A stretch of 64,000 nt of DNA, from positions 186,001 through 250,000 of the forward strand of contig JAKOTR010000053.1 in the NCBI GenBank assembly GCA_029776225.1. Reading direction: 5' to 3'. Below are positions 20,931 to 27,907 of the stretch, piece after piece (the stretch's first letter is position 1; each line of letters begins with the position of its first letter). Below the pieces are notes generated by a model. That model saw nothing but the letters and a program-made list of their open reading frames with translations, was not told where the DNA came from and ran no database searches. The position numbers were made by a program, and so were the translations under genes. Source of the DNA: Acidobacteriota bacterium (GTDB lineage Bacteria > Acidobacteriota > Terriglobia > Bryobacterales > Bryobacteraceae).

Positions 20931-22466
20931 CTAGCTGATCAGCCGCAGGACCTCGGACATTACTTCGGCGAAGGCCGCTCCGATCCCGCCGGGACCCGAT
21001 TCTATGTACTTGCCGGCGGGATAATCGGGATCGTACTGCTGCCCGACGTTGGCCATGCGCTCCATCAAACCCTTATCGGGTTTCTCTCCGCTTCCATTGT
21101 CGAAGCCGATGACGTAGATGACGGGCATCAGGTCGTTGGCCTTGCCGTCCGCGCGTATTCGTTTGATGGCATCGTCCACGACATTCCAGGAAGCCAGCCC
21201 GATCTGGCAGGGTGAGTCTACCTTGGTTGGATCGTAGGCGGCGCCATTGCAGCGGTCTGGGTGCTTGTAGATGTCGGATGTCTTGTACGCCCAATCGCCG
21301 GTCATGGGATCAATGCTGGGTTCGGTGGAATTGCCATAGAGATCCGTGGGGGGAATCCGGCTGACATCATTCTTCATGTTGTTCTGATTGCCCACAAACG
21401 AGCAGTTCCTGGAAGCCGGGTCAGGAACCACGGGTTCGTCCGGGTTCGACATCCAGGTTTCGATGTCCGAACCACCTTTCCGGGTGCGGTTTGCCAGAGC
21501 AAAAATTCCTACGGTGTTGCCGGTGCGTGCGAACCCCGAGCCTTGCGCGATGGCGCCGATGATCTTCGTGGACTCGCCGGTCCATTGTTTGTACACGCAG
21601 GGACTCGATCCCCTGATGTAGGTGTTGCCCGGTGTGTTGAATTCCGCCGAGATGCCGTTGGGCAGTCCGTCGGTGAACAGCACGATCATGTTCAGAGCGC
21701 TCTTCAGCGGGTTCTTTTGCAGTTCCTTGTAGGCGAGCCAGAGCGCTTCAGCCATCCCGGTGTTCGAGCCGGACTGGATCTTATCGATCAGCGAAAGCAT
21801 GGGCTCCTTGAAGTTCTCATCGGGCCCAGTACCGGCGTCGGGATTGTTGGGATCGCGCGGCGGATAGGCGACCAGAGCGGTGCGGCCGAAGACGACCAGA
21901 CCCAACTGGTCTCCGTGTTTGAACTTCCGCACGAACTCCTTTGCGTTTGCCCTGAGTTCGCTCATGTATCCCGACATGGAAGCGGACCGGTCCAGAACGA
22001 GAACCAGCCTCACATCGCGCCGTGCGGCCGCGCCCGAGGCCGCCACGGTCGAGTAGTCGTGCCCGAGGATCCGCATGAACAACAGCGGCACCTGCACTCT
22101 GGCCTGAATCGATACCAGAGTGCGGCGGTAGCTCGCCATATCCTGGGTGACTTCCACCTGCAGAGACCCGTCGGAGAGCCTGGGAGCGGAAGCCCCCCAG
22201 AATCCGTCAGGGAAATTCGCCTGGACGAACTGCTCCGCCGTCTTGATGGCCGAGTCTCTTTGCTCCTCGAAGGTGAGGCCGGCGCTCAGGGACCGCGCCG
22301 CGGCGATAGCGCCTCCGTCCACCGCCGACGACAGCTTGGCCTTCATGAGGTAGAGCATCGTGACGTCGATGCCCAGACCCACCATGGGCAGCAGCACCGT
22401 CAACAGCATCACGCTCAAGAGGATGATGGAACCTTTCCGTTTCCATATGTGCGATTGGGCGGGCAT
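20931..22466 (-). CDS. TadG-like protein with a VWA domain
   Basis: A 511-residue protein from the ATG at 22466, chosen for its AAAGGAA ribosome binding site. The N-terminal positively charged stretch and hydrophobic helix (GSIILLSVMLLTVLLPMVGLGIDV) followed by LYLMKAKLSSAVDGGAIAAAR are the TadG/Tad_N signature of pilus-associated proteins. A von Willebrand A domain follows (VLVLDRSASMSGY near 158, MIDAS DRSAS; VLFTDGLPNG). Two long inserts with Cys residues lie in the C-terminal half. It is predicted to be an extracytoplasmic, membrane-anchored pseudopilin-like protein. Third gene of a minus-strand TadE-TadE-TadG set. Confidence 0.87.
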   Translation of the reverse strand: MPAQSHIWKRKGSIILLSVMLLTVLLPMVGLGIDVTMLYLMKAKLSSAVDGGAIAAARSLSAGLTFEEQRDSAIKTAEQFVQANFPDGFWGASAPRLSDGSLQVEVTQDMASYRRTLVSIQARVQVPLLFMRILGHDYSTVAASGAAARRDVRLVLVLDRSASMSGYMSELRANAKEFVRKFKHGDQLGLVVFGRTALVAYPPRDPNNPDAGTGPDENFKEPMLSLIDKIQSGSNTGMAEALWLAYKELQKNPLKSALNMIVLFTDGLPNGISAEFNTPGNTYIRGSSPCVYKQWTGESTKIIGAIAQGSGFARTGNTVGIFALANRTRKGGSDIETWMSNPDEPVVPDPASRNCSFVGNQNNMKNDVSRIPPTDLYGNSTEPSIDPMTGDWAYKTSDIYKHPDRCNGAAYDPTKVDSPCQIGLASWNVVDDAIKRIRADGKANDLMPVIYVIGFDNGSGEKPDKGLMERMANVGQQYDPDYPAGKYIESGPGGIGAAFAEVMSEVLRLIS

Positions 22467-22525
22467 AGCATTCCTTTCGTGGATCCCCGGCCGGCGGCGG
22501 CGCGCGGCCAGCGCTCTCCCGCGTG

Positions 22526-23167
22526 TCAGAAGAGAGCGCATGCGTATGTGCCGTGCGGCTCGAAGGGACCAGGGACAGCCGAGGTGCGGAAATACGCTTC
22601 GACCATATAGGCGCTTCCGCCGGCGGGGAATCCACCCGAGGGCGGCTCCGGCAGCAGGTTGAAATTCTTCAGGCGGAACCGCGAATCGTTGCCGTACTTG
22701 GGCGCGAGAATATCGCCGTTCGGTTCCGTGCTGCCCGGAGGGGGATCGCCGTAGTTGCTCCCGCGCAACGCGGCGTTGCCCAGGACCAGCCGGTGCGTCA
22801 TGACCCACTGATTCCGGTTCACGCACTGCGATCCCACGAGCCCCATCTGGGCGCACTGCTCGTCGCCGATGTAAGTCACGGTGGTGAGGATCACCACGCC
22901 GTCGCCGGGCGGCGAGCTTCCCTTCGGCCGCATGTTCATGCCGAGCGCGAGCCGCACCACCAGTTCCTCGGATTCCGGCCTGGAAAAATCCACCGCGCGG
23001 GCGTACATATGGCCGACGTCGCGCGCCACCTGCACTGTCTGAATCGCCTTGATGAGGCTGGTGCCAATGAACAGCGTTCCCAGCAGCAGCGGCACCCAGA
23101 ACACCAGAGTCGTCAGCGCGAACTCGATGGCTGCGGCGCCTTTTTCGACATTCGATCGAGTGCCCAC
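22526..23167 (-). CDS. TadE-like pseudopilin protein (first left-cluster paralogue)
   Basis: A 213-residue protein. The GTG at 23167 is preferred because GGAAAGGA lies just upstream and the N-terminus then reads like a TadE protein: a short polar head, EKGAAAIEFALTTLVFWVPLLLG (Glu inside the start of the helix, as in prepilin-like proteins) and a following helix LIKAIQTVQVARDVGHMYARA. The C-terminal 130 residues are beta-rich, with Cys pairs (EQCAQMGLVGSQC). TadE proteins are minor pilins processed by a prepilin peptidase in Tad systems. It lies between another TadE-like gene and the VWA-TadG gene in one operon. Confidence 0.82.
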   Translation of the reverse strand: MGTRSNVEKGAAAIEFALTTLVFWVPLLLGTLFIGTSLIKAIQTVQVARDVGHMYARAVDFSRPESEELVVRLALGMNMRPKGSSPPGDGVVILTTVTYIGDEQCAQMGLVGSQCVNRNQWVMTHRLVLGNAALRGSNYGDPPPGSTEPNGDILAPKYGNDSRFRLKNFNLLPEPPSGGFPAGGSAYMVEAYFRTSAVPGPFEPHGTYACALF

Positions 23168-23186
23168 AATCGTCCTTTCCGGCCGG

Positions 23187-23684
23187 CTACAAGGGAGGCG
23201 CCCCGCTGGGCGGCGTAGCCTCCATGCGATCCGACGATCGGGCCGTGAAGAAAAGCGGCGCGCCGGTGCGATACAAGGGCAGCAGCGGCGAGTGGGCAAA
23301 CCCTTCCACCGACACCTCGATGATGTTGTCGCCGGAGTTGATCGGGGTGCTTCCGCCGGGCTTAAGCGGCGTCCCGAGGTCGCTTTGCGAATACCACTCA
23401 ATGTGGATCAGATCCTCTTTGCCTTTCAACAGCCCCAGCGAGTTTGCGACCACCACGCTCCGGATCGAGTCCCTGTGCCCCATGCCGGGCAGGGTTCTTG
23501 ATGTAACCCCGAACCGTACCCCTTCCCGCACGGCATGCTGCAAAGTTCCCTTGGTGAATACCGCCCAGCCGATGTCGATGATCAGGAACAGAAAACCGAG
23601 CATGGGCACCAGCACGAGGGCCATCTCGAGGGTCTCTGCCCCTTTCTGTGTTGGCCGGCGAGCATCCGATGACTTGTGATTCAT
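23187..23684 (-). CDS. TadE-like pseudopilin protein (second left-cluster paralogue)
   Basis: A 165-residue protein beginning MNHKSSDARRPTQKGAETLE, where KGAETLEMALVLVPMLGFLFLIIDIGW forms a classic prepilin-like N-terminus with Glu five residues into the mature helix. It then reads VFTKGTLQHAVREGVRFGVT, as TadE does, followed by a beta-rich C-terminal domain. It opens the minus-strand cluster, with 19 bases between its stop and the next gene. It is the probable promoter-proximal gene, divergent from the ECF sigma factor. Confidence 0.83.
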   Translation of the reverse strand: MNHKSSDARRPTQKGAETLEMALVLVPMLGFLFLIIDIGWAVFTKGTLQHAVREGVRFGVTSRTLPGMGHRDSIRSVVVANSLGLLKGKEDLIHIEWYSQSDLGTPLKPGGSTPINSGDNIIEVSVEGFAHSPLLPLYRTGAPLFFTARSSDRMEATPPSGAPPL

Positions 23685-23908
23685 GCAAACCGCGCGCGGG
23701 CACAGACCAATCCCCCTGTCGCCATTTGGCGATCACCCGCGCGTCCTTACGCTTTAAGGACGAGACAGCTCGCAAATTTCTTTACGAGCCGCCTTGAATA
23801 AGCCGGAAATTTATGTGTGAATTTATGCGATACTCAGCTTGGTAACAGTACCCTGATAACTAAGGCGAGTATATTATTCTCCCTTCAACGTACTAAGATT
23901 TAGAATCA
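23685..23908. other. Divergent intergenic region between the left Tad-like operon and the ECF sigma gene
   Basis: This 224-base gap is the most AT-rich stretch in the area (about 23770-23900) and must hold the promoters of both divergent operons. It contains an inverted repeat at 23742-23762. No promoter pair with convincing spacing was found. A TAAGAT-like hexamer near 23893 lies about 10 bases from the GTG of the sigma gene. Confidence 0.6.
23742..23762. promoter_or_regulatory. Inverted repeat in the divergent sigma/Tad intergenic region
   Basis: Perfect eight-base arms CGTCCTTA and TAAGGACG are separated by five bases (CGCTT). The position, 60-80 bases upstream of the left operon, suits an operator or a leader hairpin. 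No T-run follows on either strand. Confidence 0.45.
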
Positions 23909-24505
23909 GTGAAGCAGATGCCGCCATTGCCGGAAGCAACAGGCTCCCGCGCCGAGGAGATCGAGCGGGAAGTCGTCCGGCTCTACGGCGAGTTTGCGGA
24001 GGGCATGTTCCGCTACGCTTTCGTGCTTCTGGCAAACCGCGAGGCCGCGCAGGATGCGCTCCAGGAAGCGTTTCTGCGCTATTTCATGGCGCGGAGCGGA
24101 AACCGGAGCATCGAGCGGCCGCAGGCGTGGCTGTTCCGGGTGCTGCGCAATTACCTGCTCGATCAATTGAAAGCTTCTTCGCAGCGCAAGGAAGTCGATC
24201 TCGCCCAGATGCGCAATTATCCCGATATGCGGCAGGACCCGGAGTCCGAATTCCGGCTCGAACAGATCGTGCGCTCCTTGCGCGAGTTGCTCAGCCCGCG
24301 GGAACTCGAATGCTTCCGGTTAAGGGCGGAAGGTTTGCGCTACGAGGAAATCGCCGAGGTGCTTGAGGTGCGGCCCGGCACCGTCGGCGCGTTGCTGGCG
24401 CGCGCGCAGAAGAAACTCCGGCAGTCCTCCGTAAAGCCGGGCGCGAGCGGCAACGAGCAGGCGGGCTACCCGGTTCCCGAATCGGAGTGTCCTTATGCAT
24501 CCTGA
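23909..24505 (+). CDS. ECF-type RNA polymerase sigma factor
   Basis: A 198-residue protein with region 2 (EFAEGMFRYAFVLLANREAAQDALQEAFLRYF, then AWLFRVLRNYLLD near 72-84) and region 4 (LSPRELECFRLRAEGLRYEEIAEVLEVRPGTVGALLARAQKKLR near 127-170), the two-domain layout of ECF sigma factors. The GTG at 23909 is used; the ATG at 23918 is possible. Its 3' end overlaps the anti-sigma gene by 11 bases. It probably directs transcription of this locus in response to an envelope signal, but the signal and target promoters are unknown. Confidence 0.92.
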   Translation: MKQMPPLPEATGSRAEEIEREVVRLYGEFAEGMFRYAFVLLANREAAQDALQEAFLRYFMARSGNRSIERPQAWLFRVLRNYLLDQLKASSQRKEVDLAQMRNYPDMRQDPESEFRLEQIVRSLRELLSPRELECFRLRAEGLRYEEIAEVLEVRPGTVGALLARAQKKLRQSSVKPGASGNEQAGYPVPESECPYAS

Positions 24506-24971
24506 CACAGCGACTCTGCTTGCCTACCGCGACCGGCAGTTGAGTGCGGTTGCGCAGCGCGAGATCCAGCTCCATATTGCGGGCTGCGCCCGGTGCTCCG
24601 CCGCGCTCGAACGGCTGTCGAAGGAATGGGAGCACATCCTGGCGGAAGACGCGGCGTTCCGCCGGCTTTGCGCGCCTCCGCGGGATGGTTTGGACCGGGT
24701 GCTCTCCGCCATTCGGGAACGCGGCCGCGCGGCGTCCTCGACCGAATCCGAACTGAAACAGAAAATCGTCGAGCAACTGGAGGTGTACTTCGGTTCGCGT
24801 ATCTGGGCCGTGCTGGGCGGAGGGCCGGCTTCCGAACAGGGCACAGACCTGCTGGCGAAAGCGGAGCCGCTGCTCACCACGTTCATTGGCCGGAGGGCCG
24901 CCGCGGCTGTCGTAGCGGAAATCCATAAGGGCGCCGATCCGAGGGCCTGCCTCGATGCGGGGGTGATGTGA
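24495..24971 (+). CDS. Zinc-finger (ZAS-type) anti-sigma factor
   Basis: A 158-residue protein. Residues 1-45 hold the anti-sigma zinc motif H-x3-C-x2-C (HIAGCARC near 27-34), with an N-terminal MHPDTATLLAYRDRQLS typical of anti-sigma domains. No membrane helix is visible, so it looks like a soluble sensor; the C-terminal 80 residues are helical and unrecognised. It overlaps both the sigma gene (11 bases) and the next membrane-protein gene (4 bases), so all three are probably made together. The anti-sigma role is inferred from motif and position. Confidence 0.82.
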   Translation: MHPDTATLLAYRDRQLSAVAQREIQLHIAGCARCSAALERLSKEWEHILAEDAAFRRLCAPPRDGLDRVLSAIRERGRAASSTESELKQKIVEQLEVYFGSRIWAVLGGGPASEQGTDLLAKAEPLLTTFIGRRAAAAVVAEIHKGADPRACLDAGVM

Positions 24972-25906
24972 TGGGAAACGCTTTCCTGTACCGGGCGGCC
25001 AGGCCGGCGCCGGCGCTTCTCATCGGGTTGACCTTTGCAGTCCTGGTCCTGGGCGTTTTCCCGGCAGTTGAGTGGGTCACTACGGGTAACGAAGGCACGT
25101 TGCGGCTCTTTTTCGATTACATCGGAGCGCTATGGCTGATCGCGCTCAGCCTGGCGGAACTCGGATTCTGCCTGCTTGCGCGGGCGCAGTTCTCGCCCGG
25201 CGAGCCGCTGCGCCGGGTATGGTCGCTCGCGTCGCTCGGCGCCGCCGCGCACGCCGTGGGGAGCATCCTTTCACAGGCGCTCGGAATTCCCGGGGGACTG
25301 AACCCGTTTGCGGGAAACGCCGGATGGCCCGCGGCGGCCGCACGAGAGTGGGGGCTCACCATTGGCGGTCCTCTGCAAATGATTTTTCTGGCTTCCGCGC
25401 TGGCGTTCGCGCTCAAGACCTACAGGCGGTCGGGCCTGCTGCCGCGGATCCGCCCGGCGGACTGGGCCCTGCTCGCCGTGGTCGCCGGCTTCGCTGTGTG
25501 GCAGATCTACGAGGTGGTGCTTTACTGGGGCCCGAACAAGACCGGCAACTTCCACGAGGCGATTACCGTCATCACCGATCCCCTGCTCTGCCTGCTGCTG
25601 GCCGAAGCCATCCTGATCCGCCGTTCAGTCCTCAACATGGGCTGGGGGCTGACCGGGCTGTGCTGGAGCGCGTTCACCGCAGCCATTTTTCTGACCTCCG
25701 TGGGGAACATCGGCCTCTGGCTGACGACGAATTTCGCGCTGCCGAGGGCGCTGGAGGCATCGACATGGTATGTCTGGTTTCTCGTGTATGCCGCCTATGC
25801 GCTGGCCCCGGCCTATCAGGTGGAAGCGTGCCGCCGCGCCGTGCGGCCTCTGGTGCTGCCGCTGAAGCCGGCGCTGTGGGGCCGGCTGTGGAGACCGGCT
25901 GCCTAA
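24968..25906 (+). CDS. Polytopic membrane protein of unknown function in the sigma/Tad locus
   Basis: A 312-residue protein with about seven hydrophobic segments: roughly 17-37, 48-70, 83-105, 132-150, 164-182, 200-245 and 265-285. The start ATGATG overlaps the anti-sigma stop. No conserved catalytic motif or family was recognised. Its fixed place after the sigma/anti-sigma pair suggests a sensor or membrane component of the same system, for instance something the soluble anti-sigma factor listens to. That is a guess from position only. Confidence 0.7.
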   Translation: MMGNAFLYRAARPAPALLIGLTFAVLVLGVFPAVEWVTTGNEGTLRLFFDYIGALWLIALSLAELGFCLLARAQFSPGEPLRRVWSLASLGAAAHAVGSILSQALGIPGGLNPFAGNAGWPAAAAREWGLTIGGPLQMIFLASALAFALKTYRRSGLLPRIRPADWALLAVVAGFAVWQIYEVVLYWGPNKTGNFHEAITVITDPLLCLLLAEAILIRRSVLNMGWGLTGLCWSAFTAAIFLTSVGNIGLWLTTNFALPRALEASTWYVWFLVYAAYALAPAYQVEACRRAVRPLVLPLKPALWGRLWRPAA

Positions 25907-25987
25907 GACCGGCATAGGTATATTTACCCGCCGTCCTCAGTGTAATTCGACGAAGAATTCCGCTCGATCCGGCCGTAGTGTTTGCTG

Positions 25988-27037
25988 ATGCGCACCAAAG
26001 ACCGCGGTTTCGCGCTGATTACCGCCGGGCTTTCTGTTGTCGCAATGCTCGCCATACTCGGCCTGGCGGTGGATCTGGGGCGCCTTTACATCATCCGGAA
26101 TGAAATGCAGGCGTTTGCCGATTCGGCATCCCTGGCCGCGGCGCTCGAGCTCGACGGCACCACGGCCGGCATCGCCCGCGCACAGGCCGCGGTCTCGGCG
26201 AACACGAACAAGTGGAACTTGGGGGCGTCGGACTTCAGCGGTACGCAGGTCGACTTTGCGACCTCGCCGAGCGGTAGCTGGGAGACGAATCCCAACCCGG
26301 CCACAAATTACGCTTACGCGCGCGTGAGAGCGACGGCCACGGCCCCGCTGTATTTTCTGCCGGTTGTTTCCTCGGCCACCGTGGCCACGGTAACCGCCAA
26401 AGCCGTAGCCGGGCAGGTGCCGAAACCCGAGTTCCGCGAGGGCCTACTGCCGTTCTCACCGCTTGCGCACGATCCGGACGCGCCGGACTTCGGCTTTGAA
26501 ATCGGCCAAAAATACACGCTGCGCTGGCCCTCCAGCCCGAAACTGGGAGACAACGTATGTCCCGGCGACGACGAGCAGCGGTGGATCGACAACGCAAAAC
26601 TAGGCAGCCCGTCGGAACGCGGGTACATCGAGGAAACGAGCGCCTCCATAATCCGCGCGGCCATCGAGAGCGATTACCAGACCCGCCCGATCGGCTTAGG
26701 CGATCTGCTCCAGATGACCGGCGGCTCCATGACGACCCAACGCGATGCGCTGATCGCGCGTGTGAACCAGGACACGGACCCTACCTCGACCACTTACGCC
26801 GAGTACGCGGCGCGGGGAGCGGGAAACGGCCGGCGCGTCGTTGCCATCGCCATCAACAACGGCTTTCCCGAATACCGCGTGGTCGGATTCGCGGCGTTCT
26901 TTCTGCTCGAGCCCTCTGAGTACCAGAAAGGGGGCAACAAGCCGTTCTGCGCGGAATTTATCGGTCCCTACGTTCAGGGCGGGCGCACGGGGGGCGCCGC
27001 CGGACCCGGAGCCTATGTGGTGAGGCTGGTGGAATGA
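25988..27037 (+). CDS. TadG-like protein (right cluster)
   Basis: A 349-residue protein from the ATG at 25988. Its N-terminus RGFALITAGLSVVAMLAILGLAVDLGRLYIIRNEMQAFADSASLAAA is an unmistakable Tad_N/TadG-type helix and follow-on segment. The remaining 280 residues form an extracytoplasmic domain with repeated beta strands and no VWA MIDAS motif, unlike its left-cluster counterpart. The ATG of the next TadE gene overlaps its stop (ATGA). It is probably a minor structural protein of a Tad-like surface fibre or envelope complex. Confidence 0.85.
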   Translation: MRTKDRGFALITAGLSVVAMLAILGLAVDLGRLYIIRNEMQAFADSASLAAALELDGTTAGIARAQAAVSANTNKWNLGASDFSGTQVDFATSPSGSWETNPNPATNYAYARVRATATAPLYFLPVVSSATVATVTAKAVAGQVPKPEFREGLLPFSPLAHDPDAPDFGFEIGQKYTLRWPSSPKLGDNVCPGDDEQRWIDNAKLGSPSERGYIEETSASIIRAAIESDYQTRPIGLGDLLQMTGGSMTTQRDALIARVNQDTDPTSTTYAEYAARGAGNGRRVVAIAINNGFPEYRVVGFAAFFLLEPSEYQKGGNKPFCAEFIGPYVQGGRTGGAAGPGAYVVRLVE

Positions 27038-27471
27038 GGCGCCGCGGCAACGTTACGATCGAGTTCGCGCTGTCATTCGCGCTGCTGTTTTCCGTACTGG
27101 GCGGGGTGTTCCAGTTCGGCTACTCGTTTTACATCTACAATGCGCTTGAGACCGTGGTGCGCGATGCGGCGCGCTACGCTTCCCTGCGCGCCTACAACTC
27201 GCCATCAAGCACACCTTCGAGCGAATTTCTGACGGCGGTGCGGAATATGGCGGTCTACGGCAACCCGGCCGGTGGTTCGCAGGCCGTGGTTCCCGGACTG
27301 ACGCCCTCGCACATTGCGCTCACGGTGACTTTCGACCGCAACGTTCCCTACCGGGTGAAGGTCGCCATCCAGAACTACACCGTGCACGCGGTTTTCTTTT
27401 CCTTCGTGCTGAACGGAAAACCGTACGCCGAGTTCAGGTACATGGGCAGGTATGCGCCGACGAGCACATAG
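27034..27471 (+). CDS. TadE-like pseudopilin protein (first right-cluster paralogue)
   Basis: A 145-residue protein whose ATG overlaps the TadG stop. The head MRRRGNVTIEFALSFALLFSVLGGVFQFGYSFYIYNALETVVRDAARYAS is a textbook TadE sequence: short basic head, Gly before the hydrophobic helix, Glu at position 5 of the mature part. The C-terminal domain is beta-rich. It overlaps the next TadE gene by 20 bases. Confidence 0.87.
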   Translation: MRRRGNVTIEFALSFALLFSVLGGVFQFGYSFYIYNALETVVRDAARYASLRAYNSPSSTPSSEFLTAVRNMAVYGNPAGGSQAVVPGLTPSHIALTVTFDRNVPYRVKVAIQNYTVHAVFFSFVLNGKPYAEFRYMGRYAPTST

Positions 27472-27907
27472 AACGCCCCGCCGGGCGCATCCGGCTTTTA
27501 CCGGAACCGAGCGCGGGCAGGCTGCCGTGGAAGCGGCGCTGGTGGCTCTCATCCTCGTCGTCACCCTGATCGCGATCTTCGACATGGGGCAGGTGTTCTT
27601 CATCCACCAGACCCTGGTCGAACGTGTTCGCAATGCCGGGCGGTACAGCGCCGTGCACGCCTACGATCCGGAGGCCTTCACCAACATGGTCCTGTACAAC
27701 CAGCCCACCAGGCCCGAGGGCGCCTCCTCGGGGGTCTTCGGGCTGACGGACTCGATGGTGGAAGTGACCCGGCTCGATGCGGGGACCAGCGAAGACCGCA
27801 TCGTCCTCACGTTGCGCGATTACCCGTTCCGGCTGTTCACTCCGATCATCGGGCGCGCCTTCACCGGGCGGCCGATAGTCGTGAGCGTCCCTTACGAGGC
27901 TCCTTAG
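27452..27907 (+). CDS. TadE-like pseudopilin protein (second right-cluster paralogue)
   Basis: A 151-residue protein with a longer basic head (RRRAHRTPRRAHPAFTGTER) before GQAAVEAALVALILVVTLIAIFDMGQVFFIHQTLVERVRNAGRYS, the TadE pattern with Glu at position 5 after the Gly. Its 3' end runs 47 bases into the convergent lgt gene. It closes the right cluster, which mirrors the left one in content (one TadG, two TadE). Confidence 0.85.
   Translation: MRRRAHRTPRRAHPAFTGTERGQAAVEAALVALILVVTLIAIFDMGQVFFIHQTLVERVRNAGRYSAVHAYDPEAFTNMVLYNQPTRPEGASSGVFGLTDSMVEVTRLDAGTSEDRIVLTLRDYPFRLFTPIIGRAFTGRPIVVSVPYEAP

Follow-up and report, generated by a model that had tools for sequence, protein, structure and literature searches.

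Gene content of the locus

The window, a stretch of 64,000 nucleotides from an acidobacterial genome (bases 186001-250000 of contig C21; 5.18 Mb in 115 contigs), carries adjoining genes for an extracytoplasmic function (ECF) sigma factor, a zinc anti-sigma factor and a multi-pass membrane protein, with genes for TadE- and TadG-like minor pilins on either side. All nine genes that the original prediction had placed here were confirmed in position, strand and family using the open reading frames of the window and Pfam. Below, these three genes (the module) are interpreted as a probable switch for the divergent left pilin operon.

The sigma factor (23909..24505, + strand; 198 amino acids) matched Sigma70_r4_2 (39.7 bits) and Sigma70_r2 (34.4 bits) above cut-off, with no region 3 match listed, and TIGR02937 with 70.5 bits (cut-off 42.9). 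Its gene overlaps by 11 bases with that of the anti-sigma factor (24495..24971, +; zf-HC2, 24.2 bits, cut-off 22.2), which contains an Hx3Cx2C motif and a conserved C-terminal domain. A further overlap of 4 bases joins this gene to that of the membrane protein (24968..25906, +), a putative sensor or anchor of the anti-sigma factor without Pfam or NCBIfam match.

The left operon is encoded on the - strand and begins with the TadE minor pilin E1L (23187..23684; TadE, 44.9 bits). It is followed by E2L (22526..23167), a second TadE/TadF-like minor pilin with GTG start and a marginal TadE score (20.4 bits by Pfam, cut-off 22.9; 24.2 bits, above cut-off, in the genome scan), and by GL (20931..22466), a TadG-like minor pilin with VWA domain (Tad, 41.4 bits; VWA_2, 48.4 bits). 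The VWA domain of GL contains DRSAS, which we take to be a MIDAS-type motif; DxSxS was present in 12/12 GL proteins from loci where the operon adjoins the module (linked loci), the window's own counted. A predicted ECF-type promoter (CGTAAAG, 17 nt, CGTC) lies upstream of E1L at 23759..23786 (-).

On the + strand, the right cluster starts 81 nt past the end of the membrane-protein gene, and neither a sigma-70-like promoter nor a terminator-like site was called in between. It consists of GR (25988..27037), which is TadG-like (Tad, 30.5 bits) without VWA match, has paralogues on contigs C40, C81 and C104 and is not conserved in position, and of the TadE proteins E1R (27034..27471; 41.5 bits) and E2R (27452..27907; 33.9 bits). 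The N-terminal pilin-like region of the TadE/Tad families was found in the TadE and TadG proteins of the window, marginally in E2L. The starts of GL, E2L and GR were read from the sequence.

Distribution of the module and the promoter-like site

The membrane protein was found in 24/200 genomes of the order Bryobacterales by single-sequence search, in 34/257 by profile search, and in 3/396 genomes of a phylum-wide sample, the window's genome counted. TadG-VWA alone as query matched 125/200 genomes. A left-type TadE gene lay beside the module in 15 of the 34 membrane-protein genomes and other Tad-type genes in four (G163, G129, G167, G633). E2L and GL followed E1L in 14 of the 15 genomes with linked left-type TadE; the contig of the remaining locus (L049) ends there. 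Since the three module genes and the left operon were found together again in other genomes, they are more than chance neighbours. Judged by sequence comparison, the conserved unit is narrower than first proposed: it comprises the genes of the sigma factor, the zinc anti-sigma factor and the membrane protein, with the left TadE-TadE-TadG(VWA) operon in divergent orientation to them. Joint conservation of both clusters had been set as a test of the original prediction; it held for the left-type TadE as counted above, and of the module loci fetched, this window alone has the module flanked by both clusters.

Sigma factor orthologues scored 198-242 bits, and other ECF factors listed <=121 bits (15 genomes). 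An orthologue was present in 7/7 tested membrane-protein genomes and in G048, and absent from 7 others. The 15 named module loci are nearly all from metagenome-assembled genomes, six of them titled Bryobacterales, Bryobacteraceae, Solibacter(aceae) or Sulfopaludibacter. Record DYJN01000041.1 (L153), titled Arcobacter sp., also encodes the module; its name is probably wrong. Other mirror-image or paired Tad clusters were seen in L127 and L131, where the stretch gave no match to the sigma module, and a different, weakly matching ECF/anti-sigma pair lies directly upstream of a TadE-TadE-TadG operon in G167 (L112:6604-7508).

The intergenic regions, read toward E1L, have in common CGT[AC]AA[GT], 17 nt and CGTC, and linked relatives share this 7+17+4 frame. 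The two blocks of this conserved site before the left operon, with their 17-nt spacing, are putative -35 and -10 elements of an ECF-type promoter. The strict pattern was matched upstream of 12/14 linked E1L operons and of 1/38 others, where shuffles predicted 0.005 and 0.01. The genome of the single unlinked match (L123) holds the module on another contig (L052), and operons were therefore re-sorted by presence of the membrane protein in the genome. They were scored with a leave-one-out matrix, using a threshold of 11.0 that was chosen after the data had been seen (99th percentile of random windows, 11.2). Scores of >=11.0 were obtained for 13/14 linked operons, for 5/8 unlinked operons in membrane-protein genomes and for 0/31 operons in other genomes (highest, 9.0). 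Fisher p values for site against module classes were 1.9e-10 and 9.7e-5, uncorrected for kinship of the genomes. Within genus g12, genomes with the module scored 13.3 (G030) and 7.4 (G039), those without it -0.5 (G040) and -7.6 (G049). The "no module" class is defined by the missing membrane protein, and absence of the sigma factor was checked directly in 7 genomes; one of the 31 operons, L133 (G048), has a sigma orthologue in its genome and only ~45 nt of sequence upstream of TadE. These comparisons lend good support to the predicted control of the left operon by the sigma factor.

With the strict pattern, 24 matches were obtained in 25 membrane-protein genomes, as compared with 3 for the reversed control. 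Twelve of the 24 precede pilin-type genes; seven of these are training sites, and setting them aside leaves 5/17 new matches before such genes. Among sites that had not been used for training, L046 has high-scoring ones ahead of two TadG-like genes, and L048 ahead of TadG and of TadE-TadE. Some target-gene starts are uncertain; in L046, the first of the two TadG-like genes has its longest open frame beginning within the site. In L120 and L152, sites precede four-gene operons of the type IVa pilus (T4aP) minor-pilin type. For the eight proteins encoded there, four N_methyl matches and one PilX_N match exceeded the cut-off, PilX_N, N_methyl and PilW were each matched once below it, and one protein had no match.

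In the genome of the window, the site at 23786-23759 is the sole exact match to the extended pattern. A weak site (score 17.5, poor -10) was located on C104, 31 nt before a GR-type TadG cluster (L017:10400-10427). The left-operon site was not found on the sigma strand, where it might have indicated autoregulation. A different element resembling TAACTAAGG (window 23856-23864), first spotted by eye, lies upstream of 10/25 sigma genes, with ~1 expected from shuffles.

Partner proteins and the Tad machine

The Hx3Cx2C motif of the anti-sigma factor (H27, C31, C34) did not vary in either alignment (13 and 12 rows). In a comparison for the ASDI fold of class I zinc anti-sigma factors, RslA, ChrR, RsiW and MucA were among 27 Foldseek matches (E 4.8 to 9.8). 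The protein was judged soluble by eye, and its C-terminal domain seems to couple to the separate multi-pass membrane protein. Rearranged genes bear on this point. In L065, a single frame of 423 amino acids, free of unresolved residues, joins the N-terminal part of the anti-sigma factor to the membrane protein. In two loci of genus g31 (L236:6363-7307 and L238:1061-2005), a receiver domain and a LuxR-type helix-turn-helix are followed by the C-terminal part of the anti-sigma factor, next to a membrane-protein gene. Most simply, the membrane protein would be coupled to the C-terminal domain, and the output, replaceable in kind, would be the N-terminal domain; the link between anti-sigma factor and membrane protein is moderately supported by comparison. 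ECF hits in L236 and L238 proved to belong to a response regulator, and an apparent ECF-anti-sigma fusion in L141 was dropped because the stretch contains unresolved bases.

The membrane protein had been described as seven-helical; its structure model (mean pLDDT 87.5) has eight long helices. Loop charges are mostly consistent with cytoplasmic N- and C-termini, loop 6 not being distinct. Residues 38-297, i.e. seven of the eight helices, superpose on bundles of seven transmembrane helices (7TM) with Z up to 11.6, a value that helical bundles can reach by chance; the best superpositions were 4.3-5.8 A over 217-218 residues, and the best Foldseek E value was 0.028. Assignment to a known 7TM family was not obtained, the structure search having given weak matches only among the families listed. 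The nearest solved folds are, weakly, those of 7TM receptors and rhodopsins, from which the protein differs by its extra N-terminal helix.

The statement of the original prediction that Tad secretion genes are missing from the window holds for this stretch, and such genes were found elsewhere in the genome, on C73 and C17. C73 encodes RcpC/CpaB, a secretin, a TadZ-like AAA protein, a T2SSE ATPase, two T2SSF proteins and an A24 peptidase. On C17, Pfam confirmed a further ATPase and secretin gene; the other genes there were named from gene order only. One Flp pilin match above cut-off lies on C73 at 103298, and one weak match below cut-off at the C73 machine. Genome-wide, 12 TadE matches (10 over cut-off) fall into four clusters, in the window (C21) and on C40, C81 and C104, the latter three of the GR-E1R-E2R type. 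T2SSE matches were located on C46, C17 and C73, i.e. not in cis with TadE/TadG genes, and the Tad stretches of C73 and C17 contained no match to the TadE or TadG proteins of the window. This arrangement agrees with the earlier suggestion of a regulated surface structure relying on a Tad machine encoded at a distance.

Interpretation and comparison with known systems

The best overall explanation is that the module is a dedicated switch for a pilus-tip cassette, to which we assign a probability of roughly 0.7. In the genomes compared, the module and the left operon co-occur, the site is conserved, its presence depends on the module in the genome, and domains have been swapped. For transcription, binding, release and tip assembly, we infer the following course. 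The membrane protein would anchor or control the anti-sigma factor and, on responding to a signal, cause it to release the sigma factor. The freed sigma factor would start transcription at 23786-23759 (-) of the genes for TadE, TadE/F and TadG with VWA domain. Published Tad systems suggest, by analogy, that these minor pilins may prime the pilus and make up its adhesive or sensing tip; they would be attached to a Tad machine whose genes lie on other contigs.

Several observations weigh against this reading. A sigma orthologue occurs without adjoining anti-sigma or membrane-protein gene in G129, G048 and G167 (L205, L206 and L133 among the loci); in G129, the anti-sigma and membrane-protein genes adjoin TadE/TadG genes on another contig. 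The linked operon of L063 scores 7.4. L242, the only new linked operon, has the same spacing as the others and a score of 4.7, below threshold, and was therefore counted as a miss (tally, 13/15 linked). Three of the eight unlinked operons in membrane-protein genomes are without the site. Eight of the 24 strict matches lie inside long open frames and four at other intergenic sites. In the window's own genome, relaxed patterns gave 18 matches as compared with 38 in the reversed control, and a longer pattern with one mismatch allowed gave 25 and 20, respectively; a large regulon was accordingly not found there. Furthermore, 12/34 membrane-protein genomes had no Tad-type model match in the stretch fetched, an upper figure because the six models are blind to T4aP-type pilins and one contig (G642) starts ~0.6 kb upstream of the sigma gene; in a further 3/34 genomes the contig was too short.

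These 12 genomes would also fit a general envelope-stress ECF system, in which the sigma factor would govern numerous envelope genes, the neighbouring pilin operon being just one of its targets. So would two sites whose downstream genes were named by eye, a weak one in L045 (response-regulator-like gene) and one in L143 (TonB-receptor-like gene), and a second near-identical site in G272 (L233; G272:C61), before the gene of a 464-amino-acid protein with signal-like N-terminus by eye. Half of all strict matches stand before pilin-type genes, however, a share of 5/17 persists without the training sites, the control yielded three matches in all, and the only exact match in the window's genome is that of the left operon. 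A general stress system is thus considered unlikely.

The original prediction had treated six prepilin-like genes as one unit with one control region, governed by the sigma factor. In its favour, a related TadG cluster is divergent from the sigma gene in L054, and read-through into the right cluster is possible because the 81-nt gap holds no terminator-like site called. The conserved site, however, points to the left operon only: neither the right cluster nor the sigma gene was found to be preceded by one. In L141, lgt directly follows the membrane-protein gene, where the window has GR-E1R-E2R, and the right cluster is therefore no conserved part of the unit. Control of the left operon by the sigma factor is hence retained as a prediction, control of all six genes was rejected for the right cluster, and the six-gene unit as a whole appears improbable. 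The right TadG-TadE-TadE genes are proposed to be a further tip-like cassette, which this lineage carries downstream of the sigma operon. Improbable to a slightly greater degree is that the TadE/TadG sets act without a Tad machine, e.g. as membrane-bound or secreted adhesion proteins. VWA domains are found in many non-pilus proteins, and the TadE/TadG sets are on contigs other than those of the machine genes. The genome nevertheless has Tad machine genes without TadE/TadG seen alongside, and in Myxococcus a single machine is served by tip cassettes encoded in separate gene clusters (PMC12075869). The dedicated tip switch therefore remains the preferred explanation.

In a wider and tentative reading, which we regard as possible but rather doubtful, the eight-helix protein would stand as the prototype for a family of bacterial receptors whose outputs can be exchanged: an ECF factor or a LuxR-type response regulator (g31), either of them reached via the C-terminal domain of the anti-sigma factor, or its own anti-sigma domain (L065). 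In the order of the window, it would mainly choose the tip cassette for type IV-class pili, there of the Tad type, and in another order of the class would act on T4aP-like minor pilins, which would amount to transcriptional tip switching.

Interchangeable pilus tips were described recently for a Tad pilus (PMC12075869), and for the question of how a cell chooses its tip the locus offers a concrete candidate regulator, promoter and tip cassette. The module also gives a zinc anti-sigma factor a candidate partner from an unnamed multi-pass membrane family, and the fusions indicate the parts that may be in contact. A literature search (full texts, or titles and abstract openings, with most subscription papers outside its coverage) returned no description of the module, and the words pilus, pili and acidobacteri are absent from the text of an ECF review (PMC8103513).

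Among the closest known likenesses is the Kil Tad pilus of Myxococcus xanthus, with four interchangeable KilLMN tip complexes (PMC12075869). Both genomes have TadE/F/G-like three-gene tip sets in several clusters. In the available text, tip choice is tied to expression levels and a sigma factor is not named, whereas the left set of the window comes with its own ECF module and includes a VWA domain. In Caulobacter, CpaL of the CpaJ-CpaK-CpaL set is a TadG orthologue with vWA domain and a predicted mechanosensor at the pilus tip (PMC12607857). Two small minor pilins and a large pilin with VWA domain and MIDAS-type motif are common to both systems; the operon of the window is distinguished by its predicted control by an ECF module and its location away from the machine genes. 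The class I zinc anti-sigma factors RslA, ChrR and RsiW (PMC7406223) share with the window protein the Hx3Cx2C motif, N-terminal helices and a gene adjacent to that of an ECF factor; in contrast to them, the window protein was judged soluble by eye and has a conserved C-terminal domain. Control of a pilin gene by an alternative sigma factor is found in Synechocystis, where SigF controls the major pilin gene pilA1 (PMC8546353). SigF is a group 3 factor acting on a major pilin, whereas the factor of the window belongs to the ECF group and is predicted to act on minor pilins.

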